From NCBI GenBank assembly GCA_963921795.1, contig OY997642.1, positions 29,789,337-29,853,336 on the forward strand: a stretch of DNA of 64,000 nt. Direction: 5' to 3'. Positions 3,360-58,747 of the stretch are shown piece by piece. The translations under genes and the position numbers were made by a program. The notes under the pieces are model-generated. The model did no database searches and was not told where the DNA came from. It saw nothing but the letters and a program-made list of their open reading frames with translations. The number at the start of each line of letters is the position of its first letter. The stretch's first letter is position 1. The stretch comes from Nannobrachium achirus. Its lineage: Eukaryota; Chordata; Actinopteri; Myctophiformes; Myctophidae.

Positions 3360-3720
3360 GACCAAGTACAAAGTACAAGTTTGAGATATTTGTACTTTAC
3401 TTGAGTAGCCTATTTCCAATTTCCAATACTTTTTCTACTCCTCTACATCTCAGAGGCAAATATTGTACTTTTACTCCATACTCCACTACATATTAGAAAA
3501 CTTTAGTTTCTTGTTAATTTATAGATTTTGAACATACAATAACCACTTCAGCCGGCAGCCCTATGTTACATTTCAGCCATTTGGAAATAGCAGATCTACA
3601 AGCTCACAATGGGTCGCTATGCAACGCATGAGCTTGAATATCTGAAGATCAAAAGAATTTCATACATTTGAAAACTTGGGGAATAGGACATTCTGCATAA
3701 TGAGAACTTTTGGTACTTTA
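3360..3720 (-). mobile_element. AAAGTA-type hAT element copy (reverse)
   Basis: TACTTTACTTGAGTA and TACTTTTACTCC words, then AACCACTTCAGCC...CCCTATGTTACA next to a degenerate hairpin at 3582-3641. It is the reverse of the arrangement at 36435-36720. Confidence 0.55.
3582..3641. repeat. palindromic hairpin repeat, copy H1
   Basis: GGAAATAGCAGATCTACAAG then CTCACAA, loop, GCATGAGCTTGAATATCTG. The right arm is decayed. Located in an AAAGTA-type element. Confidence 0.7.
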
Positions 3721-3875
3721 AAGGAGTATTTCACCCCCAAAATTCATTTTTTTCCCTATTGATTACTCACAACAAGGAGACTTGAATTCATGGATATTTT
3801 TTTGTATTTGTCGCATTCTTAAGACAATAATTTGATTATAGTAAATGTACCACCATTGATTACGCATGGGGACCC
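3718..3875 (+). mobile_element. fragment of a TTAA-associated repeat
   Basis: TTAAAGGAGTATTTCACCCC then CAAAATTCATTTT...TTGATTACTCACAACAAGG. A related copy in the opposite orientation ends at about 20571. The other end was not found. Confidence 0.5.
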
Positions 3876-5289
3876 AAATGCATACCTGGTCTGAGGCAAG
3901 ACCAGGCCAATGAGAGTCGGAGCCTCGGAGGAGGGGGTGAGTCTAACAAGACAAGCAAATCAGCAGAAACAGAAAATCAACAGAAACAGTGGAGGGAGGG
4001 AGAGCTCAGCCAGAGCTCTTAATTGCTCCCTTTGAACTTCAATAATGAAAAAAAAAAAACATCACAAGGATGCAACTGGGACGTATCATCAGTGATGTAG
4101 CCTGGGGTCGACGGGTGTTTCGGGTCTCGCAACATCATACACCCTCGCCCAGGTGACCCAGCCGGGGTTGATCAAGTCCCGACTTACGTCCCAGTAGCTA
4201 TCCACGATCAGTCCTATTAGGGAAAGACAGGGTCACTCAATGTGCTGCACCGGAACTACTCTGCCGGGATTGGGGGTACTATTCTGGCGCGTGGAAGAAC
4301 TAGGCTCTGTGGGTTGACTCCTGGCCGGGCTCCTCCTACGTCTCACCAGGTCCACTCCTGCTCTCACCAGGTTCAGAACCTGTGCGTTGCACCAGACCCC
4401 AATCCAAACATTCCATTCAGCTGCTGCAGTTGAATGGCCCTCCTAAAGGCCTCACCGTGGATTTGTCAAAGGGGTTATGCACTAAGGTAATTGATTGGGC
4501 CATAAAAGTGTCAAGTCCTCGTTAGTGATCTCTCTAATCAATGAAAGCATCAAAGACAACGACCTGTTTGATGCCTGTATAGGGGAGGGGGAGGGGGGAA
4601 TGTTTTGTGTACACACAAGTCAAACACAACCCCTCCCACCCTCCCCTTTGAAATCGCTTACAATGGGGACAATGTCAGACTCAATTAAGCACCAGCGCTG
4701 AGTCTGAAATCAGGCTAACTCCTTTATGTAGTCTACATTTTCATTTTCATCATTTGTAGGTAGGCCTACATTTTGAATTACAATTTTACTTGTAACAGAG
4801 TAGGCCTATTTCAGAGTATTAGAGTAGCCTACTTTTCCCACCACATGATGATGACCATGACTAATATGCCTATGCTACACCACAGGTTTCACAATAAATT
4901 GTGAAACTGTTTAATATGAAGGTATATCCTATATGATAAACGAAGTTTGTGACGCTTTAATGTGGTCACATAGAATAGAAAGGTATAGATAGGCTAGATA
5001 GGCTAACTACTCTATGCAGTGCAGCCTGCTGTCTCACTTTAACTGTGAAATGTCGCCCTCTGCTGAATGTAACTGGGGGCTGTTCTTGTTACATCCACAA
5101 CAAATATGTTTCATTGTTTTGAAAGAAAAATGTACGAATGTTTGTCCATTTTGAATTGTTAAATTCATAATACACAGGAAAAATCCTCAATGTTAGTTTT
5201 TATACCTTTAAAATGTTACCCATATCAGTTAAATGAACACAGGTTTTATGCCAGATATAGACATACAGTATGTGTGTAATGATATAGTA
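3876..5289. other. intergenic with an unassigned GC-rich block
   Basis: 4075-4440 is GC-richer (CCCTCGCCCAGGTGACCCAG) and may be part of a retroelement, but no domain could be read. The rest is AT-rich. Confidence 0.4.
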
Positions 5290-5854
5290 ACTGAATTGAA
5301 AAATCGATTTTAATTTGCAATGATCTACATCAATGTGCAAAAGCAAAATATCGTACCGTTTTGTATCGTATCGTTTTACAATGCAGATAATCGGTATCGA
5401 ATCGCTTTGCACTGCAAATAATCGATTGTATGGAAACTAAGTATTTTGCCTTGTATTTAGCAATTTTAAGAGGGAAAATAAAAAAGGGTCTAATTACTTT
5501 TTTTTATAATTCCATTCCAATAGCTATAGGCTCTTGGTCTATCGATAAATATGTGTAATCTCTGTGTCCATGTCAAGGTGCAGATTTGTCCATATGTGTT
5601 GAAATAGGCCTATAATGTCCATGTATTTGCTAGAGAATCAGTGTTTACTTATTTATATCCATAATAATAGATTTTCCCTTAAAAAATATGCACGTTTCAC
5701 ACATATTTAATTTCTTTGCTAAATAGTTACTATATCGATTTTAAATCATTGAATCGTATCGTCATGAATGAACCAATATCGTCCATGTATCGTATCGTCA
5801 ACCATGTATCGTGATGCGTATCGTATCGCTATTAAATGTATCGTTACACCCCTA
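5290..5854 (+). mobile_element. hAT-like remnant with ATCG-rich interior
   Basis: The right end, read in reverse, is TAGGGGTGTAACGATACA, a common vertebrate hAT terminus. The interior has many TATCGTATCGT words. The left end is not clear. Confidence 0.5.
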
Positions 5855-8297
5855 TAGGCAACAGGTATGTACTGTATGTTTTTGTAAAAATCCTATTATG
5901 TCTGTATTCTATTAACGGTATTGTGCTGTTCATAGTCACTCATACAGCATGTGGTCAGTTCTAAACTTTGATGGAGGACAAGTGGAGTGAGTTGCATGAG
6001 CTCTGCAAGAGCCAGGAGGCATTGGGCTCATACAATGTCTGTTTGGCACAGAACATAATTTGCCATCTTTGTTGAAAAAGTCATGATGGGGATTCGCACT
6101 CGGCCCCTGACAGTCAGGGCTGCCCACCTCCTCAGCAATACAGAACCATGGGGGCTGTGACTCTCTTGGACTGTGAATGTGATGACCAATCTAAAGCAGA
6201 ATGCAACTACAAGATACAAGCAAAGATCAATAATTTAGGAAGATACGCCGTCCCACGCTTTAGCATAGGTGCGGAACAAATCAATGGTACACAAAAATGG
6301 TCTCCTGAAAGGTCACCATCTGACATCAGATCTTGCAAACGTCCTATGATATACTGTTGCTAGATACCGCAAGAGTACATCGCTGTGACAGAGAAAGGTT
6401 GATAACAAAGTTGATTTTCTCCTGGTTTGTCTCTCTGAAAAATGCAATTTTTGTGTCAGCATGTTCTGAAGATTTTGTGGCTTGTGAACAATGTCCAATA
6501 TTTAGTTCAGTGACCATGGGGCTAAAGAATGGGTCAGAAACTGTGTTCATGTTCACCTCTCTGATTAGAATTAACTCATGACCATGACCTTTTTCACCTA
6601 ATAAAGTTGGTTCCTACTTTTCCTTATGTATATAAATCTGAGCTATTCTGGTTTGTTTGTTAGATTGATTGACATAATACTTCATTAACAGTTTGCAAAA
6701 AGTACAGTGGTATAGTTATACAATAACGCTGAAATGACAAAGGCTCTGGGGGCTTGTCTCCATTGTGGTGGTTAGCACATTTGAGGTGCTAGAGTACCAT
6801 GACGTTCATGCACAGTCAAAATGACAACTAGTGTCCTCAGTGCATTCCTACTGACCTCCCCTCATCATCCAATCTAAAACTCATGTCAACCCATGCAGTT
6901 GTTTCATGAGTTGTTCCCACCACAAGATGGCAATGGTAGCATAGAAAACAGAGAGAAGGGCTGTTATGATGAGACATAACCCCTTACTCTCCTCCATCTT
7001 GTCCAGTTAGCAACAACCATGCAATGTTACATACATCAAGATGATTACATTATCTTGGGAATCTTTCTCAAAATATCAATCCGGTTATCTGGAAATAACC
7101 TAATGTTGCATTTAATGTGTTGTGTTACCTCCTTTGAGTGGCAGGGGTAAACTGACGTGCATGGTTGCCAGGTCCTTCATCTGAATAACTGCTTAAATGT
7201 TTCTATTCATTGAACATTAAATGTTATTTATTTCAATAAAAAGTTGCACATTTAAGTTTAAAGCAAAAATATGGAGATTATATTGCCTACAGAGCGTAGT
7301 GTCGGCTTCACATACTGTATGTGGTGCATAGTTGTAAAGTGGTGAAAACTGAAAAGTCATTTATAGGGGGGCTTACAATCACATGGGTTCTGAATGTAAG
7401 AATATTGAAGGGGCACAGTGGGGCCCTGAATTCCTGCCACTGGCCCTGTTCATAATGAGCTGTGCAGAGCAACTCTTTGACTGTTAAATACAGAAACCCT
7501 AACCCTAAATCAAATGAAGGTTGCACACATTTCTCAATTAAAATAATTTAATTCAATCATTACACCCACGTGTTTTGGTAATATGCCAATACATGTATTG
7601 CCATGACAACAGTTTATGAAGATTTTCCACAAACAATCAAATGGAAAGTATCTTTTCGAAAACAAAACCTTTTGTTGGGTGTGCATTCCCCAATAACCGT
7701 TGTCAGAGCACTTGGTGCAGTATCCATTATCATAGCTTGGAGGCATGATGTCATGTTTGAAGTCAATCGGTTGGAACTCTTATGTGCGGAAAAAGTCAGA
7801 CGCACAAACAGATTCTGTCAATCAAATATATTAGTCATCAAGATGTTTTTTATTCCAGATTAATACAATAGTTCTCTGACTGGGTCTACAATGAGAACAT
7901 TCTGTTACACATCAAGACAAATCAAAGCACACTAACAAGTTAAATCAAAAGCAAACTCACATGGGTCACAAACACGAGAAAATATTTAGCGCAAATGTGG
8001 CCTGGCAAATCTGCCCACACTACAGCATAACATATGAATATAAAATCTCATACTGGCATACTGGTTATAACATATAAGTGCTATATGATATATGTAATAT
8101 GACATCTTGAATTATAACAGATGATACACTCACATTACTTAAAGTAGTAATAATGTTCTAAAATCATATGGCTCCTGCAACTCTACATTTAAATTACATT
8201 ATCTGCTTTAGTTGTGTTTTCCCAATGATGCCTGCAGGGGGCATTCTCAATGTCAATCTCTACTGACTCTTTACATCATTACTGTTACAGCCATCTC
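5855..8297. other. intergenic, no gene seen
   Basis: Several overlapping frames of 60-86 codons on both strands but none with domain-like sequence, splice logic or codon bias. 6080-6125 has a weak tRNA-like word (GTGCGAATCCCC, reverse strand) that may mark an old SINE. Confidence 0.4.
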
Positions 8298-8769
8298 TTA
8301 AAGGTGATACACCATGAAATTTCACTTTTCCTATTTTAAAACCTTTTTTTGGGGTCCCACTAGCACCTTCTATCCTCACAAAGTCCCATTTCTGACCGTT
8401 GTGTCTTTCTCTGGTTTTGAGAAGGTGAAGGTTAAAAGTATCCCACGGGTTCTCAAAACAGGCTGTTCAGATTTGCTGCCGATTGTGACGTCATCTGCCG
8501 ATTGTGACGTCATCACAAAAAAAAAAAAAAAAATCAAAAAGATTTTTTTTTTTCAAAAAAAATTTTTTTTTTCAAAAAGATTTTTGGGGGGGTGGCGCAG
8601 TTCAGGCCAAAGGTGGTACTGCAGCTGAAATGCTCTGAGAGCCATTCAAAAATGAGAGAGGCTCTCTATTCAGGAGTGGTAATTTAGCCTCAAACCTTTT
8701 GAAAAACGTTTTTGGGACATAAACAATATGACATAAATACTTTTTAAATGCATGGTGTATCACCTTTAA
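8298..8769 (+). mobile_element. TTAA-bounded MITE, 472 bp
   Basis: TTAAAGGTGATACACCATG at the left and its exact reverse complement at the right. Internal direct repeat GATTGTGACGTCATC twice, then A/T homopolymer runs. The short frame at 8314-8628 is accidental. Confidence 0.8.
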
Positions 8770-38988
<30,219 letters not shown>

Positions 38989-39130: not shown

Positions 39131-39176
39131 GGAAAATAATTGATCTACAAGCTTGTGATGGGTTACACATCGGCAC
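39131..39176. repeat. palindromic hairpin repeat, partial copy H7
   Basis: GGAAAATAATTGATCTACAA then GCTTGTGATGGG. Left arm only. Confidence 0.5.
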
Positions 39177-41254: not shown

Positions 41255-41302
<48 letters not shown>

Positions 41303-41303
41303 T
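41255..41303 (+). repeat. (AATC)n microsatellite
   Basis: About 12 CAAT/AATC tetramers. Confidence 0.95.
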
Positions 41304-41725: not shown

Positions 41726-41797
41726 TTTACACATAATAAAACACAGGCAGTATTGCCTAGATATTATCCAGTATGCAAATACACCTAAACAGGAATC

Positions 41798-41900: not shown

Positions 41901-41909
41901 GTAACATGG

Positions 41910-42075: not shown

Positions 42076-42123
42076 AAATTATTATTTTTTTTTGGGGGGG
42101 GGGGCTTAATCTCTCAAGAAACA

Positions 42124-42665
42124 ATCTGGCTCGCCATCGTCAAAGAAAAGTTTGGTTGCTCTTTTCACTTGCAGCAATATGCAGAAGTCTGTAATCGAGA
42201 GACTACTCAAGAACAGACTCTGATGCTAAAGGAACAAAACAGAGAGGGCGCTGTTTTTCCCCTTTCTTTGACGCGTCCACGTTTCCCAATGACCCTAAGC
42301 GCAACGGTGGGGGCGCAGGGGGGCTGCAAGGGAAAGGAGCGCTTGTTTTCGGTGATGACGACGGAGGCGCGCCGTCTCAAGTAACCATGAGCCATGTGAG
42401 GCACCGCAGAGCGGGCGGAAGCGAGCGAATCGCAGTGTCGAGCCTTGCGACGGTCACATTAACTGACTCAGCGCTGTTACCGAGTTATGTGCCGTTATGG
42501 ACAGAATTGTAAATCTTCGCCCCCCCGACTTTCCGCACCTCCGCGGGGTCCAAGTGAACACAGCGAAGCACACCCTATACCTCCTTGCCCACCACTGGCC
42601 CCCTCCGTTGCGCTCAGGGTCCCTTGGAAACGCCAGGTCGCTTCTTTGATGATGGTTAGCCAGAT
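42124..42665. mobile_element. foldback element with about 200 and 120 bp arms
   Basis: Left ATCTGGCTCGCCATCGTCAA pairs with TTGATGATGGTTAGCCAGAT at the right. Further in, CGTTTCCCAATGACCCTAAG pairs with CTCAGGGTCCCTTGGAAACG. Arms are diverged, suggesting an old insertion. Confidence 0.6.
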
Positions 42666-42711
42666 AGGGTGGGGCGTGGCCACCAAACATGGCTGCTGTG
42701 GATGATGGTAA

Positions 42712-43395
42712 GTGTCTCCGCCAGGCAGAAAGGCATGGCTGAGAGTATGTTTTCCCCCCTGTCCGTGTGTCCGCGTCCGTGCGTGTCCTTCCGTCTGTGG
42801 ACAGCTAATCTCCGGAACATTGGCACAATGGCAGCGAAACTGTCCACGCACACTCCCTGGGCCTGTTATTGCGCCACCAGGAGGCGGATTTGTGCAAAAC
42901 ACATTTTTGGACACAACTCCTACAGATGGATTGGATTTCTTTCCTAATCAGCCTCATGGTTGCACTATAACAGGCCTATTAGTATTATTGTTTTTATCTA
43001 TAACTCCCCCGATCAGTGTAAAACGTTGTATGTGCACTCCCTAGAGGCCAAGGAAATACCTTTCTTTTGCCCTACATTTTTCACATCTGACTTTTAGAAC
43101 GCCACCAGGAGGCCAACTTATGTAAAACACACTTTGGGATATTACTCCTTCAGATTTTATCCAAAAATCACGCAAATCAGTACACAGTATCTCTATAGTC
43201 ATGTGATCAAGAAGGATCTGTCAGATATTTCATATTCCTAATTGTCTAACATTGGCTTCCAAAGTTTGCAGGACTGGTCCTTTTTAAACAAAATGCCCTT
43301 AACACAGGGTGCAATTTTTTGTGAAATATTGCACGCAAATTCCAACTAGGTTGAGAAACAAATGCCATCCTTTTCACATTGGCATGTTATAGCGG
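42712..43395 (+). repeat. dispersed repeat (GCGCCACCAGGAGG family), left part
   Basis: AGAAAGGCATGGCTGAGAGT then ATGTTTTCCCCCCTGTCCGT, later GCGCCACCAGGAGGC and TTTTCACATTGG. The hAT element at 43396-45087 is inserted here, and the repeat resumes at 45088-45255. Confidence 0.5.
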
Positions 43396-44054
43396 CAGGG
43401 CCGGATCTAGGCATAGGCAAGGGGGGGCATACTGACTACACTAGTGGGCCCATGGACCCCCCAAAAAAGAGGGAAAAAAAGGAATGGGGTTGGGGCGCGA
43501 GGCTAACAACCCCACCCTGTTAAAAAAGTGTGATTCTGTAGCCTGATGCAGGTGACCTGTTGTTTGTATTGTGTGTTATAGGTATAAGTGTGCCAAAATG
43601 CTTCGTTTTCCATGCTTTTAGGGGGTTTGTCCCCCCCATTCTTTTGGAGGTCACCCCCCTATCATTTCTCCCTGCCCCACCTATTGAGACGGGTCCGACT
43701 GCAGTACTCAGTAGGAGGCGGCCATTGGAGGAGGCGGGCATTGGAGGAGCGGGAGGCGTATTAGAAAGGTTCATAGTATCCAATAGAATCATGGCAATAA
43801 TGTCACGTGCACGCTGCTCTGTCCCAGGTGGGCTTTGAATTCCTCTTCAAACCTTTATTGAACACAGAAACCAACATTCCCAAAAAATAAAACGTTTTTT
43901 TAATAATGAAAAGTAACTTTTAATAATAAATAACTGTATTGCATTCATTCTTATTGCCGAAAATGACTCTTCAAACCATTATTCAACACTAGAAAATAAT
44001 ATTACAAAAAAAGAAAACATTTCCAAATGAAAAATAACTTTTAATAATAAATAT

Positions 44055-44618
44055 TAGCGGCGAGGGATCCCCCCTGAGGACCGGCGGTCCGCGAGAGACA
44101 CCCCGGTGGAGGGTTGACGTGAGTCGGCCACCCTGCGGGAGTGCGGGGGTCTCACGCCGCTGACCACGGGGTGACCGCAGCGGAGGTCCGTGAGTAGTGG
44201 TCTCCCGGTGGTAGCCGTGAGTCAGCCGCAGCGGAGCCGCAGCGGAGGTCCGTGAGAGGTGCGGGGGTCTCGCTGCTGACAGCTGACCCCCGCACCTCTC
44301 ACGGACCTCCGCTGCGGCTGACTCACGGCTACCGTGCGGGGATCTGTCGACCCTCCACCGGGAGACTACTACTCACGGATCTCCCGGCCACGATCTCCCG
44401 ACCACGGTCACCCCGTGGTCGGCGGTGAGAGAACCCCGCAGGGCGGCTGACTCACGGCTACCGTGCGGGGATCCGTCGACCCTCCCCCGGGAGACCCGAT
44501 GGTCACCTCGCCTCGCCGATGACCGTCGCCTCGCCGGTGACGGTCAACGGCTCAACGGCTCCGCCGGGGCTATAGCGGCGGGGGCCTCGCTGCTGACCAC
44601 CGGGGTGTCTCTCACCGC
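44055..44618. repeat. CpG-rich palindromic core of the hAT element
   Basis: Includes a perfect 35 bp inverted repeat at 44235-44269 and 44285-44319 with a 15 bp loop, plus further repeats of CACGGCTACCGTGCGGGGAT and GGAGGTCCGTGAG. The open frame through it is not credible as protein. Confidence 0.75.
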
Positions 44619-44850
44619 TGATTTATTATTAAAAGAAACTTACTATATTATTAATATAGAAACTATTTACTGTATTATTATTATTACTATATTAAAATAA
44701 ACTATTTACTATATTATTAATATAGTAAATAGTTTCTTTTAATAATATTCTTAAAGAAACGTGTTATTTTCCTGTGTTCAATAAGAATTAATAATCCATG
44801 TTGTTGTAGTATTCTAAAAACGACTGGGCACCGGTGGCTGTGTTGGGTGG

Positions 44851-44924
44851 CGAAAACAGCCGATCTACAAGCCCACAAAGCGTTGCGCTTGCTTGTGTTG
44901 TGAGCTTGTAGGTCTGCTGTTTTC
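44851..44924. repeat. palindromic hairpin repeat, copy H8
   Basis: CGAAAACAGCCGATCTACAA with right arm TTGTGAGCTTGTAGGTCTGC then TGTTTTC. AACAGC / GCTGTT is changed on both arms relative to AATAGC / GCTATT. Outer flanks GGTG / CACC also pair. Inside the hAT element at 43396-45087. Confidence 0.8.
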
Positions 44925-45087
44925 AGCACCTCCAAGGCCCGCCTCCTCCATGATTCTATTGGATACTATGAACCTTTCTAATCCGCCTCCAGCTCCTCCA
45001 ATGCCCGCCTCCTCCAATGGCCGCCTCCTACTGAGTACTGCAATCGGACTCTTATGCACCTATTGCTAAAGGCTAGATCCGGCCCTG

Positions 45088-45255
45088 TTATAACGCCACC
45101 AGAAGGTCGACTTTTGCAACACACATTTTTCGCAAAAAAGCCTCAAATCATGAATGCAGCATCAGATTACCGTAAAAGGCAGAAGAAGATATGGCACCCT
45201 TTTCACATTGGACAATTGTAGCGCCACCAGGAGGCCACAATGACATACCTGACCT
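45088..45255 (+). repeat. dispersed repeat (GCGCCACCAGGAGG family), right part
   Basis: TATAACGCCACCAGAAGGTC and CCCTTTTCACATTGGACAAT then GTAGCGCCACCAGGAGGC, continuing the family interrupted by the hAT element. Confidence 0.5.
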
Positions 45256-46469
45256 GACGGGGAAAATCCCAGTTGGGCGGTGTCCCAGTTGGGCGAACAG
45301 ACTGTAATTATTGTCCACGACATTGCAAGCGGCGCGAAGGTTTGTCCAGGTGCAACGAAAACACAAAATATTTATGTAAATTATCTTGACTGGAACCAGG
45401 TGATCGTGTCAATAAAACATTTGATTTTGTGTCAGAAAAGATTTGAATGTTCAATTATAATACTGCTGGTATATTTAATAAATGCTTGTTTGTTTTTTTA
45501 TTTTGTTTTTTGTGTAATAGTTTGGGGAGATGAATGGGTTTTCTATCTGTGACACCACAAAATGTCCGCCACTGCTACAGTATGCCCTATATAGGTCTTC
45601 TCTCTACCCATTGCAGGGATGAACCTAGGCCTTCTTTTTCTACCCATAGCAAGCAGTCACAAAACAGTTGAATAACACTGCTAATTTCTCATTATTACTC
45701 ATATGTGATAAGTTATCATCACCGGTCATATGATTAAATGGTTAATATAAGGTTATCACAGGTGTCGCTATCGTTTCATCTATTGTCTCCTTCATATTAA
45801 TTTATGAGGGCAATTAATCTCCGTGAGAAGACATACTCGACATCCAGATGTTACGTCTACTTCTCTGACCACTTGATTTATGAAAAGCCTGAAAAATGTT
45901 ATCAAGAGACTTCTGTGCCGGAAAACAATGAGGGATAATAGAGCGTTAGTGGTACCGTAGTGTTATTTCAGTAAGACATTTTACAGCAGTAAATCAAAGC
46001 AACATAATATGTTACAGACTCCTGACTGACTGACTGACTGACTGACTGTGTTTAGATGACAGTGGTATGACACTGTGGTGAACCAAATGTTCCTGTGCAA
46101 CGCAATCTGACATGTTGGCTTGTAGGTTTTTCATGGTTTCCACCCAACAGCGACGATATTGTATAAACAAGATGCGTAGCTCAAAGAATGATGCAGGAGC
46201 CGGAGAATGGAGAAGAATGGGAAAAGGATGAAGAGAACAACAGGAAGCTAAGAGCTTTACATAGTGTGTGTTATGTGATAAAAGTGAAATGATATTAGAA
46301 AATGTATCAGATATGTGATGACGCCATATCTCTTACATACTGTATATGTCACTCCTATAAGCTAGACTTTATTTGGTCCATAAAACGAGAGATGTGACGA
46401 TAAGTCTTAAAATAGTTTGCTGTGACTTGACGTGGACATGCTATCTGAGCCCGCTTTATTACCCTGTTC

Positions 46470-46474
<5 letters not shown>
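45256..46474. other. intergenic, no gene seen
   Basis: (GACT)n at 46022-46048. Otherwise unassigned AT-rich sequence. Confidence 0.45.
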
Positions 46475-46556
<82 letters not shown>

Positions 46557-46671
46557 CGTCTTTGTGTGAGTGAGACAGAGAGTACATTGGTGCATCATGG
46601 GTGTGTCCATATTTGCATGAGTTTAAGGCTGGGTTTATGTGCATATACACGCATTGTGAATGGGCATGTAT

Positions 46672-46757
<86 letters not shown>

Positions 46758-46818
46758 ATATTTGCATGAGTTTAAGGCTGGGTTTATTTGCATACACGCA
46801 TTGTGAATGGGCATGTAT

Positions 46819-46875
<57 letters not shown>

Positions 46876-46914
46876 TGTCTGTGTGTCTGTGTGTCTGTGT
46901 GTGTCTGTGTGTGA
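46475..46914 (+). repeat. compound (GT)n arrays with duplicated 66 bp spacer
   Basis: GT arrays at 46475-46555, 46676-46756 and 46823-46874, then GT/CT mix. The spacer TTTGCATGAGTTTAAGGCTG ... GGGCATGTATTTCCGTGTG occurs twice. Confidence 0.93.
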
Positions 46915-47042
46915 TCATGCATTATGTGAACATCTCAATATGCAGGTAGTTGGAAACATGAAAAAGACAATTTGTTATAGACAATTTGTCAGTTATGGGA
47001 AAACAGACATAAGTGAAACCTGCAGTCTCTCTTTTTGCAATG

Positions 47043-47044
<2 letters not shown>

Positions 47045-47093
<49 letters not shown>
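47045..47093 (+). repeat. (AC)n microsatellite
   Basis: About 24 AC units. Confidence 0.96.
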
Positions 47094-47094
<1 letters not shown>

Positions 47095-47879
47095 CAGACC
47101 CACGCTGTGGTTCTTCTGTGGGGTGATGAGTTTATAGTCCTAACTAATTGGCAGGAAAATACTGCTCTGTTTTCATCTGAGCAGGACATAATGACTCCAT
47201 TTCACAGCTGAGAGCCAAATAAACAGTTGTACTGAGATGGATGGAGAGAGAAGGAGATTGAGACAGAGAGAGAGACAGCAGGACGAGAAGAGAGAGGGAA
47301 TCAAATAAAGAGAGATGAGATGTGGAGAAGCAGCATCATGTTTTAATTAAGTAAAAGTATCAATACTGCAATGTAGATATACTCTGTTACAAGTTGTCGT
47401 ATATAAGAAGTACGTATTCAAAATGTACTTGAGTAAAAGTATAAACAAATCGGCATAAACATACTTACATACTTAAAGTACCAAAAGTAAAAGCACTCAT
47501 TGTCTAGATCAGGGCTACTCAACTTTAGATGGCTCAGGGGCCACTCAGCAAAATGCCAAAAGTCCAAAGGGCCGCAAGCTAAAAATGACTGATGTTGTAT
47601 TTTGGACGTTCACAATGATTTTGTAACACACTTCATGACAAGTCTAATAATTAAGGAAACCCACAGAAAACAGCCACATTTCCATCTATATAAGCCAGGC
47701 CAAACCTCATTGAACCAAAAGATTGTCATGGATGGAATGATGAAATTATCACATTTTATCAAATTAGGCTTCATTCACAAAATGTGAAGTGAAAATGAAC
47801 AGATCTGGTTCAATCTTTTTGTAACCGCCCCTTAAATAACACTGAGAAGGACCAGACTAATAGCCACAACAGTGTCTGG

Positions 47880-47975
47880 GAATGCAATGCTTGTGAACTT
47901 TGGCAATGTAAAGCCATGTTTTCTCATGCCAATGAAGCTCCTTTTAATTGAATTGAACAATTTTTTAGGGCAACA
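47880..47975 (+). mobile_element. LINE 3' tail fragment
   Basis: CATGTTTTCTCATGCCAATG then AAGCTCCTTTTAATTGAATT, nearly the same as the tail at about 53007-53047. Confidence 0.45.
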
Positions 47976-48225
47976 ATTCAAATCAATTACTCAAATAATA
48001 TCCTGGAAATTAAACTAAGTCTTGGGTTAGGTAACAAATAAAATAAAGTATAAAATAAAATACAAATCTTGTTTTTCAAGTCTCTAAAAATGACATGGGC
48101 TAATTTGGCTTGAAGCTGTAGCCATGACCTGACAGGCTGTTATTGATCCAGACCTATAAATAGACGTTTATACTTATTATTCAATCACTCAAACCCCAGT
48201 ATCCCTATTCTTGGGGGACATTCCC

Positions 48226-48287
48226 CAAAAATAGCCGATCTACAAGCTCACCACAAGATGTGTTGCTTGTAGATCGGCTATTTTTGA
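48226..48287. repeat. palindromic hairpin repeat, copy H9
   Basis: CAAAAATAGCCGATCTACAA pairs with TTGTAGATCGGCTATTTTTG without mismatch, around a short centre. Located inside the hAT element at 47510-51542. A poly-A run of about 23 follows. Confidence 0.85.
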
Positions 48288-48661
48288 AGAGAGTAAAAAA
48301 AAAAAAAAAAAAAAAAAACATAAGCTCAGTTCAACTCTGCCTCAGTTACACTGTACTTATGAAACAGTTTGATGCTTTGAGCTTTGTAAAACACAACATC
48401 TCGTTGGAGGAGATTTGCGGTAGCATAGTTCCCTGGCTGATGATATCTGTTGGAATGCGGTGCTGACTGGCGGAGCCGCAGCGCAGAGACAAGGGCTAGG
48501 TGTAACGTGCCTACAGGCAGTCCCCTCTTCATTAGCCTGAAACATGACAGTCGCAACCGTTCATATCGCACAACCGCCATGCGCCCAGTCTCCAGTGAGC
48601 CCGACTGCGGTTGTCTGCTGCAAAATCTCCGCAAATGTGTCTGTCTGACTGTCTCGGTGTA

Positions 48662-51310
48662 GGCAGGGCAAAGCGTGTAAAAACCTGATTAAAGGGTGCA
48701 CCAAACCTTTCTCAATTGATTCTTATGTATTTTTTCCTGTAGAATCCATTTCTGCAATATACATTTTTATATCGTGCATAATTAATGAGATAATTAGCAT
48801 TTTTGACTAATTATGCTAATTATCTCATTAATTATGCACAATTCAACAATATACTTTGCAGAAATGGATTCTACGGGAAGAATTACATAAAGATCCACTG
48901 AGAAAAGTTTGGTAAACCCCTTTATCAATTTTTGATGAATTCTTTCCCGTTCTTTCTGCCCATGGGTCAAATTATTTGTAACATGGGTGGAAATGACAGG
49001 ACAAACCCTATTTAAAAAATGATAAAAGGGTTTACCAAACTTTTCTCTGTTGATACTTATGTATTTTTTCCTGTAGAATCCATTTCTGCAATATACATTT
49101 TTGTATTGTGCATCATTAATGAGTTAATTAGCATATTTGAAGCATATTTGACATATGAGGGGAAATAACACAAAAAACCTATAACAATTTGATAAAAGGG
49201 TTTAACAAACTTTTCTCAGTTGATCCATATGTATTTTTTCCTGTAGAATCCATTTCTGCAATATACATTTTTGTATTGTGTATCGTTAATGAGTTAATTA
49301 GCATATTTGACATATGAGCGGAAATAACAGGAAAAACCTATAACAAATTGATAAAAGGCTTTAACAAACTTTTCTCAGTTGATCCTTATGTATTTTTTCC
49401 TGTACAATCCATTTCTGCTATGTACATGTTTGTATTGTGCATATTTAAGGAGATAATTTGCATATTTGACACATGGGCTTTAATAATTGTATAATACATA
49501 TGCGTATGGATAATTTGGCTGTAGGCAGACACAATTATGCAATTAGGCCACAGAATATTTATATTTGATCAAAATGAATCTATTTTTATATCCCTAGTGG
49601 AGGACCCCCGCCACTGCAGCGCACATAAAATGCTGTAACTCGGGCTAGGAGCGACCGGGAGAGCCGGGGCCAGTACCCACGCGTCCGCCTCGGCGGCGCG
49701 GAGACAGCCCTGCATAGAGCCCTGACCGCTGCCACTGCAGCCCCCTAAAAAGCCCATAACTCAGCCCCCCAGCGACTGGGGTGACCTGACGGTCCAAACT
49801 GGGACAAGAACATTGTCTGTCTGTTGCCAGTCTTGTCCCAGTTTGGTTCACTTGCAAACAGTTTCCACCAAGCCTGAGCAGAAAACCTCCCAGGAAATCA
49901 AAGTGCGGGGAGGAAGCTGATGATGAGAGCAACGATGAGAGCCTGGAAAGTCAAAGAAGGAAACCAAAGAGTCAACCTGCTAAAAAGAGGCGGAAAATAA
50001 AAGATGCTACATCCTCTGAAAATGAATCTATATGTACTTCAGAAATGCCTTCTTCCACATCAGAGTCTGACACTGAGTTTGTAATCAGCAGTGATCCAGA
50101 TGCATCAGATAGAGAGAGTGAATACTCAGATGACTTTTAACCAGTAAGACTCCCTAATCGGGAGATAAGCGACCGTCAGGTCACCCCGGTCGCTGGGGCT
50201 GAGTTACAGGCTTTTTTAGCGGGTTGCAGTGGCGGTGGTCTGCCGCTAGGTGGTGCGCAGGGCTGTCTCCGCACCGCCGAGGCGGACGCGTGGGTACCGG
50301 CCCCAGCTCTCCCGGTTGCTCCTAGCCCGAGTTACAGCATTTAATGTTCTCTGCAGTGGCGGGGGTCCTCCACTAGGGATATAAAAATAGATTCATTTTG
50401 ATCAAATGTAAATATTCTGTGGCCTAATGGCATAATTTTGTCTGCCTACAGCCAAATTATCCATACGCATATTTATTATACAATTATTAAAGCCCATGTG
50501 TCAAATATGCAAATGATCTCATTAAATATGCACAATACAAAAATGTACATATAGCAGAAATGGATTGTACAGGAAAAAATACATAAGGATCAACTGAGAA
50601 AAGTTTGTTAAAGCCTTTTATCAAATTGTTATAGGTTTTTCCTGTTATTTCCCCTCATATGTCAAATATGCTAATTAACTCATTAACGATACACAATACA
50701 AAAATGTATATTGCAGAAATGGATTGTACAGGAAAAAATACATAAGGATCAACTGAGAAAAGTTTGTTAAACCCTTTTATGAAATTGTTACAGGTTTTTC
50801 CTGTTATTTCCCCTCATATGTCAAATATGCTTCAAATATGCTAATTAACTCATTAATGATGCACAATACAAAAATGTATATTGCAGAAATGGATTCTACA
50901 GGAAAAAATACATAAGAATCAACAGAGAAAAGTTTGGTAAACCCTTTTATCATTTTTTAAATAGGGTTTGTCCTGTCATTTCCACCCATGTTACAAATAA
51001 TTTGACACATGGGCAGAAAGAACGGGAAAGAATTCATCAAAAATTGATAAAGGGGTTTAACAAACTTTTCTCAGTTGATCTTTATGTAATTCTTCCCGTA
51101 GAATCCATTTCTGCAAAGTATATTGTTGTATTGTGCATAATTAATGAGATAATTAGCATAATTAGTCAAACATGCTAATTATCTCATTAATTATGCGCGA
51201 TATAAAAATGTATATTGCAGAAATGGATTCTACAGGAAGAAATACATAAGAATCAATCGAGAAAAGTTTGGTGCACCCTTTAATCAGGTTTTTACACGCT
51301 TTGCCCTGCC
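48662..51310 (-). mobile_element. 2649 bp foldback element, copy 2 (inverted)
   Basis: Reverse-complement of copy 1 with exactly the same length; any position x in copy 1 maps to 77070 minus x here. Stretches compared at both ends, in both arms and in the loop showed no difference, including arm-specific variants. TA flanks both ends (48660-48661, 51311-51312). It is inserted inside a hAT-type element (47510-51542). Confidence 0.88.
49790..50140 (+). pseudogene. 116-codon open frame in the loop of foldback copy 2
   Basis: Open from just after an in-frame TGA to TAA at 50138-50140. Its only Met is late (in SEMPSS), so it is probably an exon fragment, not a complete gene. The product is strongly charged: RKPPRKSKCGEEADDESNDE, then a nuclear-localisation-like AKKRRKIK, then a Ser/Glu/Asp-rich acidic tail ending SDRESEYSDDF. 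The possible acceptor TTGCAAACAG lies upstream. The family is not recognised. A captured host gene fragment or the N-terminal part of a lost transposase are both possible. Confidence 0.45.
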
Positions 51311-51616
51311 TATAGCTCTAGTGCAGCTGCATCTCGCACTGCTGTCAGTGCTGCGCTATGGCTGCGCTCTGTGTGTTGACTGCATTCGCTTCCTGACTAC
51401 GGAGTGCACCGAGGCTCAAACATCACCGCCTTTGACAGGCTTAGAAAATTAAATTATTTTTTATTTGTATGATCATGACGGGCCGCACAGACATGCGGAA
51501 AGGGCCGCATGCGGCCCGCGGGCCGCGGGTTGAGTAGCGCTGGTCTAGATTCTCTAGTCTAGAATGTCCCATACAACTTTTAGACAATTCAATAAAAAAT
51601 GTATGCAATCTTTTTT

Positions 51617-51669
51617 AATAGCTCACAAGTTCACATTGCGTTGCACTGTGAGCTTGTAGATCATTTTTC
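51617..51669. repeat. palindromic hairpin repeat, copy H10 (decayed)
   Basis: AATAGCTCACAAGTTCACAT, loop, CACTGTGAGCTTGTAGATCA. Right arm conserved, left arm partly lost. Confidence 0.6.
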
Positions 51670-52239
51670 CTCAAAATGGATGAAATATTTATGCTGTACG
51701 GCTGAAGTGGTTAGTGTGTTTTTAATAATAATCAAAATCTACAACGTTTTCAGTGGAGTGTATAATATTGTCCTCTGAGATAGTGTGGTAGAAGTCAAAG
51801 TACCGTATTGAAAATTTTAATATTATAATACTGAAGAAAGTAAAAACACCTCAAAATTGTAATTGAGTACAGTACCTGAGTACATACTTTTAGTTATTTT
51901 ACTTTTCACTGTGGAGAAGGTGAAGGGGGTTAAAGAAGAGAACATGTCAGAGAAATGAGGGAGAGAAAAAGACAGAGTGGGATGACAGGGAGAGATTATG
52001 GATAATTATGATATAACTTGGGAAAGCACCGTCTATCTGATGTTGTGCAACAGCACCCACCGACAGGCTGTCATAAATTACTGCAGCACGACACGTTGCA
52101 GTAAACATTATCTTTAGAGCTATTACATAGAGGTAACTTTTACAGATTCTGCATACAGCTACTGTATATACATGCTACTCATTGTGTTGTTCACTGAAAA
52201 TATTTTTTTATTTTTCTTACATTTTTTATCCCATGATTT

Positions 52240-53050
52240 TGTAACCCATTTGTCACCCGGTGTCAATTATCTAATGTAATCCACAGTCCCTCTCTGCCAA
52301 CCTGGGCAGACAACGGACAGACCTCATGCCCTATGCATGAGAAGTCCAAGTTTCTTCTTTTCACCTGACAGGGGGGAGTTTTCCCTGGTTGGACGTTGCG
52401 CGTGGAAGGAACACCTTATTCCAACCAGTTCCTTTCCCCCCAGTATAGACAACATGCCTGGCCACGCCCCCTACTTCCGACCGGAAGCCCTTTTTTGGGC
52501 TTGATCGTAGCGCGATTTCCTGTTTACGTTCATCTGATCTGATTCTCCTCTTAACTAATGAGACGGGATTGTTTTACTTTGTAATTTTACTTTGTAACTT
52601 ATGTTAACAATGTCACTTAATGGCAACACTCATCCACTCTGCTGATAAATAAATGAGTTGTGACGATACACACCTGTTCTGCCATCATTCAATGTTATGA
52701 GTTGGAGGGAAAAAAAAAGAGATCTCAATTGAAACAATTGCCATAGGCTTTCTTGGGCGTATGCTTTTAGTTGACCTTGTACTAGTGTACTGTCATGAAA
52801 CTACCTTTTTTCATATGCAAACTTCTTAAAAAATAACGCTATTTAAATTGTTTCAAAAGCTTTATACCCTGTATATATATATATAAAATGTCACAATGCG
52901 ACATAGCTTTTTACACAATGCTGTACTCCCTCCAACTGCATGTCATATTATATGTTCGCCATTTTAAACTGTTTTTATTTTATTTGACACTTGCTTTGGC
53001 AATATAAACATGTCTTCTCATGCCAATAAAGCTCCTTTGAATTGAATTGA
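52240..53050 (+). mobile_element. LINE (CR1/L2-like) 3' region
   Basis: AAGTTTCTTCTTTTCACCTG then GGGGGGAGTTTTCCCTGG resembles the conserved 3' part of fish CR1/L2-type LINEs. It ends near GCCAATAAAGCTCC and TTGAATTGAATTGA. No reverse transcriptase frame is present. Confidence 0.5.
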
Positions 53051-54388
53051 TATAGGCCTACAAATAAACAGATTTGTGTATTTGAAAGCAAGCATTGAAC
53101 CTAATCAGTATTTCATGGAAGCGAATGTTGTATGATTTCTAGCTAGCAAACCTTTTCCCTTCAGAACGCTGGTTGATCATGTCAAACGTTGTCATCTCCA
53201 TTCTCCTCTGTTCTGGGATGAAGTCACAGTTGGCTTGTGTTGTGTGATATGCATTAATGTTTTTACAAATAGGCCTGTCAACAACTCAACCCACTCCAGA
53301 ATAGACATAATACACATTAGCCCACCTATTATGTGCATCCTATGCTGTGTTCATTTCACTATATCACTGTAAATCATCGATTTAATCCTAATCAAGGCAA
53401 TATAAATATCCATTCATATTTAATGCTCATTTAATCATTAAATCCTAAACTGTCACGTCAAAACAATGAATACATTTGGCTTTAATAGATACAAAAACAA
53501 ACTGGATTAATTGAAAATGACAAGTGTTTAAAAGCATTCCTTCAAAGCATCATTGGGAACATTCCTTATCTCAATAACACAATATACAGTACAACATTTG
53601 AAACCCTCAACAGTAAAAAAAAAAAAAAGGCATGGACAAGTCAAAGAAAAGTGTGTATAAATATTGTATTGCAATAAATATGATGAGGAGACCCTCACAT
53701 CTGGCTTCATTGGTCCTGGACGTACAGTACAGGTCTGAAAGACAGAAAACAATTGCATTCACAGATACAACACAACAGCGAAGAGCTTGTATTTCAATTA
53801 TAATCAATGTTGTGTTGTCACAAGTGAAAATAACTTGTACTTAGTTGTAACAAGAGTAGTCCCCATACAGTAAAAGATCGTAGCTAACAAGGCTAATTAG
53901 CTAGCATGAGAGTTTTACCTTGTTGTTGTTGTTGTTGTTGTGAGTCGTGCTGCTTCTCTGGGGAGTTTGCTGAGTTTAGGATATGTTAAGGATGTCATCA
54001 ATACTATTAACAACTGGTGTAGATAGAATAAAAACATCGAAGATAGCGGTGCGCTTGCATATCAAGAGACCATGACCGCAGTCACCGCACCATCTGACAG
54101 CTGGAAAAAAAACCTCCGTTGGTTTAACCCTTTCAGTTCATTGTCATAATCTCTTAATCCCTTTCGACTTGGGGGCGGGGCGTCCCTCCTGCAATCGGCC
54201 AGAAATGTTGTCTATAGAGACCAGGATTACTGCATGTTTTTTGTGAGGGTACCTACCTTACGGGACATGGGGAGAACATGCAAACTCGTCACAGAAAGGC
54301 ACTTTTGCCAACCCCACCTAGGGTATGGGCACTTATGACACGGAGGAGAGAACATTATGTAAAAGAATTCTAGGAAAACATCCAGCGA
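53051..54388. other. intergenic, no gene seen
   Basis: Poly-A at 53615-53628 and (TTG)n at 53922-53941. No supported exon. Confidence 0.45.
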
Positions 54389-54392
54389 ACAT

Positions 54393-54445
54393 ATAGAAGA
54401 TCTACAGTATATAAGCTCACAATGTCACAGTGCTACTGTTTTCGC
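54393..54445. repeat. palindromic hairpin repeat, decayed copy H11
   Basis: AGAAGATCTACAGTATATAA then GCTCACAATGTCACAGTG. Mainly the left arm remains. Confidence 0.45.
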
Positions 54446-54688
54446 TGATGAGATTTGGTGTAGAGGAAAAAGTACTTAAAATAAGGTCAACAAAGTATTT
54501 TAGGGTGTAAGTAACTGGAGAAACTGGTGCATTTTAATATACAGTCAATACGACCAGAAACAAAGTTTTAAAAAGCTCAACATTAATGCATTTCTGAATG
54601 TAAAAGATAAAATAGTACAAAAAGCTGTGCAGAGTTATGAAAGGGCTTTGCAGTCATACTGTGGTGGCAGATTGACCAGCATGTGGTA

Positions 54689-54904
54689 TGACATCATTTT
54701 GTAGGCAGAGGAGAATTTCTGCCCCCAGTTTCCGTGAATCGTTTTACCATTTTTACTATTTACACATTTTTCTTCTCTTTGTTGTTGAAAGGAAAGTGTT
54801 AGAATTATACTTTAGTCGTTTTTTTTGTCTCGGATCTGTTAAAATAGCGAGGGACAGAAAATGCTCTGGGGGCAGAGTTCTCCTCTGCCTACAAAATGAT
54901 GTCA
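54689..54904. mobile_element. MITE with 39 bp terminal inverted repeats, 216 bp
   Basis: TGACATCATTTTGTAGGCAG then AGGAGAATTTCTGCCCCCAG, mirrored at the right end with a few mismatches. No clear target duplication. Confidence 0.75.
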
Positions 54905-54920
54905 CGGCTTAAAAGCCCCA

Positions 54921-55716
54921 TAGAGCATCGCAGTGAGGTGTCGGAAGCAAGCTGGCCATTCATATTTACCATAGGATTTTTCATTATCAGCCACAAAGTC
55001 GTAGCAATTCAATGTACACTTACCACTAGGCTGGTGGTTGTAAAATGGTTCCATATGCTCCTGTAGAACCCCCGAGTATGTATGCAATCACTCTAGTTTT
55101 ATTAAAAACACGTTTTAATCAAGATCGCACGGAGAAGAACTGCATTTCCCATGCTGCTAAACGTAAAAACGACGTATGTGATTGGTCTAGCTTCTTCTTC
55201 TTTCACATATCTTGCGGTTACCGCGGAAGTAGCTTACTGCCCCCTGTCTGCCCGGCAGATTATTGCACATCAGCAGAACTGCGTGAGCGAATACTTTCTT
55301 TTACAAATATGATGCACTGTGTTAAAGATGACGATAAGAGAGTCCACAGAGATGACAATCACTACATTTCAGGCCATATGCTGGCCTGGATAACTAAACT
55401 GAGCGTGATTTAAGGGCTGTATTTCAGGAAACAACAACAACATTCGCAAGGCATTCTGGGAGTGTAGTTTCCGCGATTTTAAAAATAATGATGTACACAG
55501 TCTTGTACCCTGCCCTTTTTTTCAGCTTTCTAATTAATCTTTGCATTCAAAAAAATGTGAATATTGACATGATCCCTCTCCAGCCGAGGTGGCTTTGTCC
55601 AAGGCTTAAAAACGTTTAAATAAATACTTTATGAAATGTCTATGGAAGAAATGAATGCGGAAAACGCTTCCGACACCAGAGTGAGGACGGGGTGGGGCTT
55701 CAACTGCGATGCTCTA
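54921..55716. mobile_element. foldback element, about 800 bp
   Basis: Ends TAGAGCATCGCAGT and (reversed) TAGAGCATCGCAGTTG. Second paired block GGTGTCGGAAGC (54937-54948) with GCTTCCGACACC (55666-55677). The 122-codon frame at 55045-55413 inside shows no recognisable domain. Confidence 0.6.
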
Positions 55717-56193
55717 TAGAGGGTATGCACGTCCACTGGGACCCGCCCCCCTAATCTAGACTGAGTGGCAAAACATTGAGCAGCATGGAGCATTGGAGTT
55801 TGCTAGTGCTAGTTGCAAATCACTCAACGGCCCTGCATACCACCTGTTTCTAAATTGCACATAATGCAGGAGGCAGCAGGATGTTGTGTTGTTGAAAACG
55901 AGCGCTTCCTAACTCTGACACTTGGAATAAATAATCCCCTGCACAGAATGTCTTGACAGAAAGTAGCTCATAACATGTCTATGGTGGATTTTTATGAAAC
56001 AAAAAATTAAGAGGATAATTCAAGCTTTCAGTACAGCCGCAATGTTGGTGAGTTTAACTTTGTTTAATACAACCAGAAAGGACTTTTCTTTTTGCATGTA
56101 TGGGCTGTCAATGGCAGAAATTAGTTTTTTTTTGCCACTCAGTAGGCGTTCCCATAACTTCCAGCAACAGTGATGTCACGCGCATACCCTCTA
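55717..56193. mobile_element. TA-flanked foldback MITE, 477 bp
   Basis: TAGAGGGTATGCACGT at the left and TAGAGGGTATGCGCGT (reversed) at the right. Inner paired blocks GAGTGGCAAAA. TA at 55715-55716 and 56194-56195, so Tc1/mariner-like. It directly abuts the preceding foldback. Confidence 0.7.
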
Positions 56194-56195
56194 TA

Positions 56196-56823
56196 GTAAC
56201 TGAAGGATATGTAGGCCTACAGATTATCACAGCTTTCATTGCACGAGGATGATAGCAAGTGCGATGATGAATGAAAGGCAATCATTTATTATGACATGCT
56301 ACATATTCACAAATAATTTAATTTAATATATTAACGTACTGTCAACACGAAAATGTGAATTTAATATTGTAGTCCCACTGGAATGTTCTCAACTGTGAGA
56401 AGAGAGAGTTGGCTGAAAGCATGGACATCATCATCATTACCCAGCCAATCTATGAACCGTCCCAAGTGGCTGTTTTCCACTCTGTATTTTGTCTTCTCTG
56501 TTTCTGGATAAATTCCATTGTTTTTATGTCGGGTTGTTTAATATGTTTTTAGAGGACCACAACAGAAATAAGCCTTAGAGCTTTATAGTGTGTTAATTGT
56601 TGTTCATGGAAGTGCTTTCTTTTTATCCCCAACTAAATTCAGTCAATCATCTTCTCAACCGTGAATTTGATCACACCAACCACAGCAGCTGTGTTTGACA
56701 ACTGTTGTGTTTCGTCTATGTTTTCATCCATATTTACATGGTGAGATTCTTCTGGTGCACGGTGCCACTTTAGCTTGCTCTGACTGACTGGGCAGCTGCC
56801 ATATCATTCCTAAGGCAGATATG
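56196..56823. other. intergenic, nothing recognised
   Basis: AT-rich, no coding signal or clear repeat. Confidence 0.45.
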
Positions 56824-57070
56824 CAGTGGTGGAAAAAAAGTAAAAGTAGGTACTTTTACTTTACTGGAATATTTCCAATTGTCAGTTATTTTACTTCTAC
56901 TCCGCTTCAAATCAGAGGCAAAATATTATACTTTTACTCCTCTACAATTATTTGAAAACATCCATGAACCACGTCAGCCCTATATCTACAATGTGTCGCG
57001 ATGGTATTGGTATTTTAAGTACAATTTAATAATTGATACCAATACCTTTGTACTTTTACCTGTACATTTT
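56824..57070 (+). mobile_element. AAAGTA-type hAT element copy
   Basis: Begins CAGTGGTGGAAAAAAAGTA and is rich in ACTTTTACT words. A decayed, partly deleted form of the hairpin (ATCTACAATGTGTCGCGATG) sits at about 56986-57005, at the family's usual site beside AACCACGTCAGCCCTAT. Confidence 0.6.
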
Positions 57071-57547
57071 TGAATTTCAGACTTTTACGTGTAAGGCTGG
57101 CAACTTATCACACTCTCAGTCCTTAGTGAGCATGATTGCCCCAGGATCAAAACTGATACCGCAACCTGTGAGTGTGCACCTCAGGTTCTCTTCACACTAT
57201 ATACATTTTTATTTCATGGCATTTCTATATTATTTCACACTACAATGGGCAGATAGTGATAGTCAGTGACATCAAACACAGGTCCTTAGGAGACTTCAAC
57301 CCCATTGCATCATGATTTGGTCTGAGATTGTATAATGAACACACTGGCTGAGCGACTGAAATGCCCAGAGGTTCACATTCTTACAAACAGCGGTCCAACC
57401 CCCATACACATATCAACCTCATCATGATGAAAATGGTCATGGCAGGTCTACCAACATCCTGCATCTACACATCCCCTATGGCACTAGTTTTCAACCTCAG
57501 GTTTGGGGACCTTTGGTGGTCCCTAAGTTGAGAAACCTATGGTACAT

Positions 57548-57720
57548 AGGCCGAAAGGCATGGGCGAGACTATGTTTTGCCCCCAGTCCGTCCGTCCGTC
57601 CGTCCGTCCGTGTGTCTGGCCGTCTGATTGCCGTGAATGGCCGAAGAAGACATGTCACCCTTTTCACATTGGCCTGGCCTATTATAGCGCCACCAGGAAG
57701 CCACAACCTGACCCAGTGGA
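57548..57720 (+). repeat. dispersed repeat (GCGCCACCAGGAGG family), short copy
   Basis: GGCCGAAAGGCATGGGCGAG, (CCGT)n at 57587-57611, TTTTCACATTGGCC and TATAGCGCCACCAGGAAG in the same order as at 42712-43395. Confidence 0.55.
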
Positions 57721-58581
57721 GACGTGTGCTCGGAAGAGCACTGCTTCTAGTTTCTCCTCATTTCTCCTCACAATCCCTTACCTTCTTTCTGTTCTCATGA
57801 CTTATACATACCACAGACAGTCCAGCTGTAGGGGGTGTCCATTATGCAGGATTAGGATCATCATTGGTTCTGTACTATTTACAAACTAACATCCATGCTG
57901 AAAATACTCATACGGCCCACAAGTTGCCTGCTATAGTTTTATACTCGAAGACTGCAACTGGCATTGACATGCATGCATTATTCAATGTTGGTTATGACCA
58001 CATATTTAGCCAAATTACATTTACAACTGGCATTAAAATGTCTCCCTGTCATACATATTGATATTGGAGCTCTCTCTCTCTCTCCCATATAAAATGTAGA
58101 TGAATGCACTTGTCATTTCTCTTATTTACATCCTTTAAGGGCTTATCACATGGGAAGCGACTGCATGTGCCTAGTAATTAATTTTCAATGAGAGGCGAGG
58201 TAGGCTGGGAAGCGTGGGCAATTTGACAGGCGGAGCAACAAGCACTCCCGTCAAACTGTCATGTTTTTTAGCTGTTTTTTTCACGTGCCCTTGACAAGAG
58301 CTGGATTGTAGTCAACCTTCTTCTATGCAATGAGCAGGACAATGATCATTTGACACGCTTAGGCGTAGTTTGCCTGCTGTTTTTACTCGCGGAGCAATTG
58401 TATGGCTGACTGTATTCCATGAGAAGCAGGCCCATAGGTCAGGAGCCTCCTAGAAATTATCCCCTTTTTTCTGTTTCCTACATTTATTTCGACTGAGCAA
58501 CTTTCACTTGCTGTTGAGTAATACTTGACCAGTATCTATAAGTCAAGTACTGGGGTTTAGTATTTTGTTGACCACTGGTTG
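57721..58581. other. intergenic, downstream of penk
   Basis: No exon seen. Short (CT)n at 58070-58085. Confidence 0.45.
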
Positions 58582-58610
58582 ATGTGAGATTGTAGATCGG
58601 CTATTTTCAT
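58582..58610. repeat. palindromic hairpin repeat, half copy H12
   Basis: ATGTGAGATTGTAGATCGGC then TATTTTCATC matches only the right arm of the family. Confidence 0.5.
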
Positions 58611-58674
58611 CAAATGTTTGCCCCAGACTTGGGACACTAGGTCCATGTGGTTAAAACACCTCATATTAGTGACT

Positions 58675-58747
58675 AAATAGCAGATCTACAAGCTCAGTCA
58701 CAATGTGACGCATCACAATGCGCTGTAAGCTTGTAGGCTATTTTTGA
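58675..58747. repeat. palindromic hairpin repeat, copy H13
   Basis: AAATAGCAGATCTACAAGCT then CA; right arm TGCGCTGTAAGCTTGTAGGC then TATTTTT. It lies about 90 bp from half copy H12, in the penk downstream region. Confidence 0.7.

Follow-up and report, generated by a model that had tools for sequence, protein, structure and literature searches.

The stretch of DNA analysed here (the window: 64,000 nucleotides of Nannobrachium achirus, assembly GCA_963921795.1, contig OY997642.1, positions 29,789,337 to 29,853,336 of the forward strand) contains multiple copies of a short, dispersed palindromic repeat which is probably an Angel-like MITE module that often resides inside larger elements and whose lineages are founded as palindromes and then decay. 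The evidence comes from the abundance of the repeat, from the linked states of its two arms, from the covariation of the arms between copies, from its amplification as a passenger of several hosts, and from a count of one-sided and two-sided changes at one arm position.

A numerous family of palindromic hairpins

The first-pass annotation of the window had claimed a dispersed palindromic hairpin family of about 13 copies, and this family is real. The arm GATCTACAAGCTCACAA has 16 matches on the two strands of the window with at most 3 mismatches, against 0.25 expected from shuffles, and an iterative nhmmer search yields 12 non-overlapping copies at E ≤ 0.01, some of them fragments. Weaker remnants lie close to 39132 and 54393. 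The copies in the window and the repeats associated with them are as follows.

3582..3646, plus strand: decayed hairpin copy, 3' arm partly gone (arm match, profile search; weakest fold of the six copies folded, z -3.6)
10981..11049, plus strand: old hairpin copy (profile search)
14404..14480, plus strand: hairpin copy with TAGTG/CACTA flanks (arm match, profile search)
16489..16567, plus strand: H3, A-subfamily hairpin, AAGCACAC/GTGTGCTT, with AGCACAC/GTGTGCT (arm match, profile search, genome search, fold)
17161..17222, plus strand: decayed hairpin copy (profile search)
32723..33085, no strand assigned: MITE, presumably hAT-like, enclosing H5, with ends CAGTGGTTCTCAACC and GGTTGAGAACCACTG (coordinates counted by hand)
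32822..32889, plus strand: H5, B-type hairpin (TACATGC/GCATGTA) with a duplication on one arm (profile search, fold)
36536..36606, plus strand: left flank of repeat D, common to most of 30 fetched copies
36607..36685, plus strand: near-perfect hairpin copy within repeat D (profile search, genome search, fold)
36691..36753, plus strand: right flank of repeat D, common to most of 30 fetched copies
39132..39172, plus strand: weak single-arm remnant (E 0.0006 in the last profile round; outside the set of 12 copies at E ≤ 0.01)
44849..44926, plus strand: H8, hairpin with AACAGC/GCTGTT (arm match, profile search, arm alignment, fold)
48226..48285, plus strand: H9, hairpin with CAAAAATAG/CTATTTTTG (arm match, profile search, arm alignment, fold)
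51620..51664, minus strand: truncated hairpin copy (arm match, profile search)
56952..57059, minus strand: relative of repeat D with an apparent collapsed hairpin remnant (flank search)
58581..58607, minus strand: single-arm remnant (arm match, profile search)
58675..58744, plus strand: hairpin copy (arm match, profile search)

Beyond the window, the hairpin was sought in 20 stretches of 10 kb that were chosen by hand over six contigs of the 1.66-Gb genome (200 kb in total, of which 7.7 kb is N). These stretches contain 58 copies at E < 1e-3, or about 0.3 per kb, in an uneven distribution, with at least one copy in 19 of the 20 stretches and nine in a single one (L043). Genome-wide, 38,257 copies have both 15-base inner arms exact for either the A or the T type discussed below, which sets a firm lower bound on the copy number; a rough extrapolation puts the total at 10^5 or more, and at several hundred thousand if the stretches are typical. 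The 17-base arm was also found in eight stretches of viral contigs, which by our estimate is close to the chance level for such a large collection.

Copies with two arms are about 44-86 bp long, often 75-80 bp, and are too short for coding. The family thus shares general features of MITEs, being short, non-coding, dispersed and present in high copy number, and the entire hairpin unit is an inverted repeat. Furthermore, as expected of an Angel-like element, the hairpin is an imperfect palindrome that is predicted to fold on one strand: for six window copies, folding of the DNA strand gives z-scores from -3.6 to -13.0, and in no case does any of 200 shuffles reach an equally good fold. The inverted-repeat structure is also retained across diverged lineages.

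Mirrored variants as apparent subfamily marks

All four mirrored variants to which the first-pass annotation drew attention are indeed present, namely H3, H5 (ACATGCTC/GAGCATGT), H8 and H9. The matched changes on the two arms are genuine, but the annotation omitted the unmatched ones: if the variable column 9 is disregarded, there are three one-sided changes besides the mirrored one in H3 and four in H8, and in H5 ATAGCAGATCTAC is duplicated on one arm only. So do these variants attest to the maintenance of single copies? To judge from the sequences, all four look like subfamily marks rather than products of single-copy repair, H3 on the strength of genome-wide counts, and H5, H8 and H9 on that of states shared within the sample. 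The H3 state is an A instead of a T at position 9 of the 15-base arm. At this position, 21,276 copies in the genome are A/A, 16,654 are T/T and only 327 are mixed, compared with about 18,849 mixed copies predicted under independence of the arms, so that the H3 variant is a hugely amplified state. Of 61 sampled copies, four have the H5 state on each of the two arms and nine likewise have the H8 state, a C at arm position 5; of 25 contexts, six have the H9 state, a C beside the A run, at each end. The eponymous copy is counted in every case. The four variants therefore lend no support to the maintenance of single copies. The annotation had itself conceded that old subfamilies formed once would weaken its case, and this description fits H3; the states of H5, H8 and H9 are common to other sampled copies.

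When H3 with its flanks was used as a query against the genome, 40 of 2011 candidate matches were scored; the self-match is 100 percent identical, and the other 39 are 86-94 percent identical, mostly over query bases 10-88, which correspond to the hairpin alone. A flank search at the H3 locus did not find the flank of element A, the host described next, which hints that the H3 type of hairpin can also sit outside this element.

Larger elements that carry the hairpin

Element A has imperfect inverted ends (ATATCGTCGTTGTCGGG..) and a hairpin near its middle. Of the A-type loci, 10 are spanned on both flanks; each of these holds 34-71 nt of inserted sequence, and a host devoid of the hairpin was not found among them (an eleventh row, L046 946, with partial flanks, was set aside). 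Remnants of element A ends occur in the window at 15813-15860 and 46132-46159, the latter adjoined by a very weak match to the hairpin profile at about 46087-46128 (E 0.1-0.6). H5 lies inside a MITE with hAT-like ends, a host link based on two sequences, the copy in the window and a partial relative. Element C is bounded by TTAA-CCC-type ends, each of its terminal repeats contains one hairpin, and additional hAT-like sequence lies inside; from their end motifs, we take the host of H5 to be hAT-like and element C to be piggyBac-like. Most C-type copies share the same arm mismatches, ATATAC facing GTAGATC and CTCAC facing GCGAG, so here an imperfect founder was amplified. In stretch L043, five C-type hairpins follow one another at a spacing of 275-295 bp (3430-4632), and the right flank of the last one differs from those of the others. 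In a B-type copy in stretch L050 (5186-5371), several GATCTACATGC-like repeat units of the left arm precede the hairpin, which gives the impression of a stem segment copied several times over.

Repeat D is the repeat around the copy at 36607, with conserved flanks, and its hairpin is identical over 84 bases in all 40 places elsewhere that were scored out of 1203 candidates. Two mirrored variants from the stretches are also multi-copy. For the L041 type, all 40 scored places (754 candidates) are identical over 82 bp, a length that takes in ten bases of flank to either side, and the L042 type, in which a block is duplicated on both arms, is identical over 116 bp in 33 of 40 scored places, L042 itself included (468 candidates). 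Since L042 and eight fetched copies have nearly all of 150 letters on each side in common, the L042 hairpin is a passenger.

Two observations on these loci and contexts run against the explanation favoured here. A clean empty site of the bare hairpin was not found among the repeat-D relatives and the A-type loci; the stretch at 56952-57059 was considered as an empty site of repeat D and rejected on account of its apparent collapsed hairpin remnant. Likewise, a consistent direct target duplication at the hairpin ends was not found in 25 contexts, in which the flanks are mirrored instead: direct repeats occur in three contexts at k=2 (0.6 expected), in none at k=3 (0.2), in one at k=4 (0.08) and in none at k=5, 6 or 8.

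The window also contains repeats of other kinds. Two copies of a 2,654-bp element, at 25757-28410 and 48660-51313, lie in opposite orientation and differ by zero mismatches; each copy is an inverted repeat with arms of about 765 bp at 98 percent identity, ends TAGGCAGGGCAAAGCGTGTAAAAACC and TA at both ends, and looks like a recently moved foldback-type transposon. At 37246-37649, a 27-bp tandem repeat (GCGTTAGCCTGCAGCTAGCGCTAGCTA-like) forms two blocks, and a 139-bp stretch recurs 183 bp further along at 98 percent identity.

Covariation of the arms between copies

The first-pass annotation had maintained that the arms co-vary and had called for aligning them separately. This test was run on 61 distinct copies with both arms alignable, out of 106 profile hits, taken from the window, from the 20 stretches and from around loci L001-L030, and mirrored changes turn out to be well above chance. 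The 199 changed cells comprise 143 one-sided changes, 47 mirrored ones and 9 that are two-sided but unlike; permutation of the arms between copies gives 12.3 +/- 3.4 mirrored changes, with a maximum of 25 in 5000 permutations. The sample includes related copies, and the covariation is therefore to be read as one between lineages rather than as a tally of events in single copies. Removal of the five subfamily-diagnostic columns leaves 10 mirrored changes against 3.1 expected (p=0.0002). The inner stems of T/T and mixed copies, in lists that represent many lineages (92 of 127 rows with 17 letters), behave similarly. In the GCCTCGC-type rows, 12 changes are mirrored where 3.0 are expected, beside 39 one-sided ones; in the remaining rows, 16 are mirrored where 10.0 are expected, beside 58 one-sided ones. 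The persistence of the excess in both these cases counts against the reading preferred here.

The mirroring extends just outside the core. At flank positions 1-6 outside the A run, 25 contexts (reduced from 44 usable of 60) have 92 mirror matches compared with 51.3 +/- 5.6 expected, a count in which some dependence is left because three of the 25 contexts are A-type. Since the mirrored outer bases differ between contexts (GTG, TTTG, TTTGCC, CG), the palindrome seems to have been kept whole, ends included.

Proposed founding as palindromes, decay and the alternatives

How could a family whose arms co-vary between copies consist of copies with so many one-sided changes? Under the explanation that we favour, the hairpin is a short, non-coding, palindromic MITE-type module, many copies of which ride as passengers in larger non-autonomous elements, namely element A, the hAT-like MITE around H5, the piggyBac-like element C, repeat D and the L042 repeat, such that the amplification of a host multiplies whichever arm variant happens to be aboard. 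New lineages would begin as palindromes through snap-back synthesis, in which an arm that is nicked or single-stranded folds back and a copy of it is made, and the subsequent base changes in single copies would be mostly one-sided decay. If new lineages indeed start in this manner, the covariation of the arms between copies follows. Fold-back copying is most likely the cause of the mirroring, and the hairpin itself would appear to move independently between hosts.

Decay was measured at arm position 12 of the A subfamily, the single paired position covered by the within-subfamily count. Both arms have the consensus base in 21,276 copies, one arm is changed in 466 (226 + 240) and both arms are changed in 29. 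Copies thus decay mostly one arm at a time, given the 466 one-sided against 29 two-sided changes, with a small mirrored excess on top: the 29 copies compare with 3.2 predicted by independence from the single-arm frequency, and with about 4.5 for each of the two arrangements of an unpaired two-position control (9 copies in all), which is comparable if the second position mutates alike. At this position, then, decay dominates, and two-sided changes are about six- to nine-fold above independence, too many for pure independent decay, which weighs against the favoured explanation. As for the earlier claims, the covariation stands, also just outside the core, and the upkeep of the palindrome within single copies finds no support beyond this small two-sided excess within the subfamily, which is the surviving, testable part of the original idea.

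The excess is what lends some plausibility to an ongoing, low-rate arm-to-arm conversion, whereby mismatch repair of a cruciform or hairpin copies a change across in roughly 1 in 20 changed copies, a possibility that we hold to be clearly less likely than the favoured explanation. Seven of the 29 two-sided copies have C->T on both arms and fall into four matched lengths (39, 44, 47 and 48), which speaks for several origins and makes a single clone improbable. Another 18, which would also be counted in favour of conversion, carry a purine (A or G) on one arm opposite a pyrimidine (T or C) on the other, a class that mixes mirrored and unlike pairs, but 16 of these 18 have length 47, and all 18 may represent one small amplified double mutant; the remaining four are unlike pairs. 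Conversion also has to contend with the 466 changed copies that stay one-sided, and with the 44 A/A inner stems (those with a 17-base inner region among 50 listed A/A copies), in which 24 one-sided changes and no mirrored one were found; chance itself gives 0.5 mirrored changes there, so this zero is weak evidence. A more far-reaching proposition, that about one arm change in 20 is mirrored within individual copies and that the same process re-founds subfamilies, taking flank bases into the palindrome, we consider rather improbable.

A third scenario, which we deem unlikely, invokes selection for the folded form, with only palindromic founders being mobilised through recognition by a transposase, a replication factor or an RNA pathway. 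The trace left by selection for founders able to fold would differ little from that of fold-back copying, and such selection would be compatible with the mirroring across the arms, the inner stem and the positions just outside the core, as well as with the strong predicted folding, but amplification via larger hosts needs no folding, and the C-type founder that was amplified is imperfect, as its shared arm mismatches indicate. Finally, the notion that independently decayed inverted repeats were picked out by eye is hardly credible: one-sided changes are, to be sure, the commonest class (143 of 199), but the 47 mirrored ones were unreached in 5000 permutations, and the A/T arm states are linked across 38,257 copies.

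One subfamily alone has more than 21,000 copies in which both inner arms match exactly, so that changes on one arm and changes mirrored on both can be tallied at each position, and such tallies separate founder-level mirroring from per-copy repair. Should the more far-reaching proposition above be true, this hairpin repeat would be numerous enough for arm-to-arm copying to be measured within a genome.

Comparison with known palindromic elements

The present family resembles foldback transposons (for example Tetris of Drosophila virilis) in having inverted repeats that are able to fold, but those transposons are larger and their structured arms are long, whereas the present hairpin spans about 80 bp. 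The Xstir MITEs of Xenopus (Hikosaka and Kawahara 2004), as described in PMC12628747, occur in single, tandem and composite forms, and two neighbouring elements have been proposed to join in a stem-and-loop while the DNA replicates (PMC12628747). Going by this description, the five spaced C-type hairpins in stretch L043 are reminiscent of the tandem and composite Xstir forms.

A search of the literature with six arm strings gave a sole match, which is unrelated. The likeness to Angel is one of described properties. Angel is said to have retained its inverted-repeat structure despite large sequence divergence. In the accounts of this zebrafish MITE (Izsvak et al. 1999, J Mol Evol 48:13-21, PMID 9873073) given in PMC12628747 and PMC2579443, it is a short inverted-repeat element, dispersed in high number, that pairs within one strand in vitro. 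Its copy number is quoted as 10^3-10^4 (PMC2579443), and in the fold-back model for its amplification a strand loops, synthesis re-starts on the nascent strand and an extrachromosomal stem-loop results (PMC12628747). Thus, a fold-back amplification model for palindromic MITEs has been available since Angel, and by analogy the mode of action of the present module would fit that of Angel, this model included. As far as these accounts describe Angel, both are short, dispersed, abundant inverted repeats foldable on one strand, which in our case is a prediction. Unlike Angel, with its quoted 10^3-10^4 copies, the present family has at least 3.8x10^4, and, again unlike Angel, many of its copies are passengers of several larger elements.
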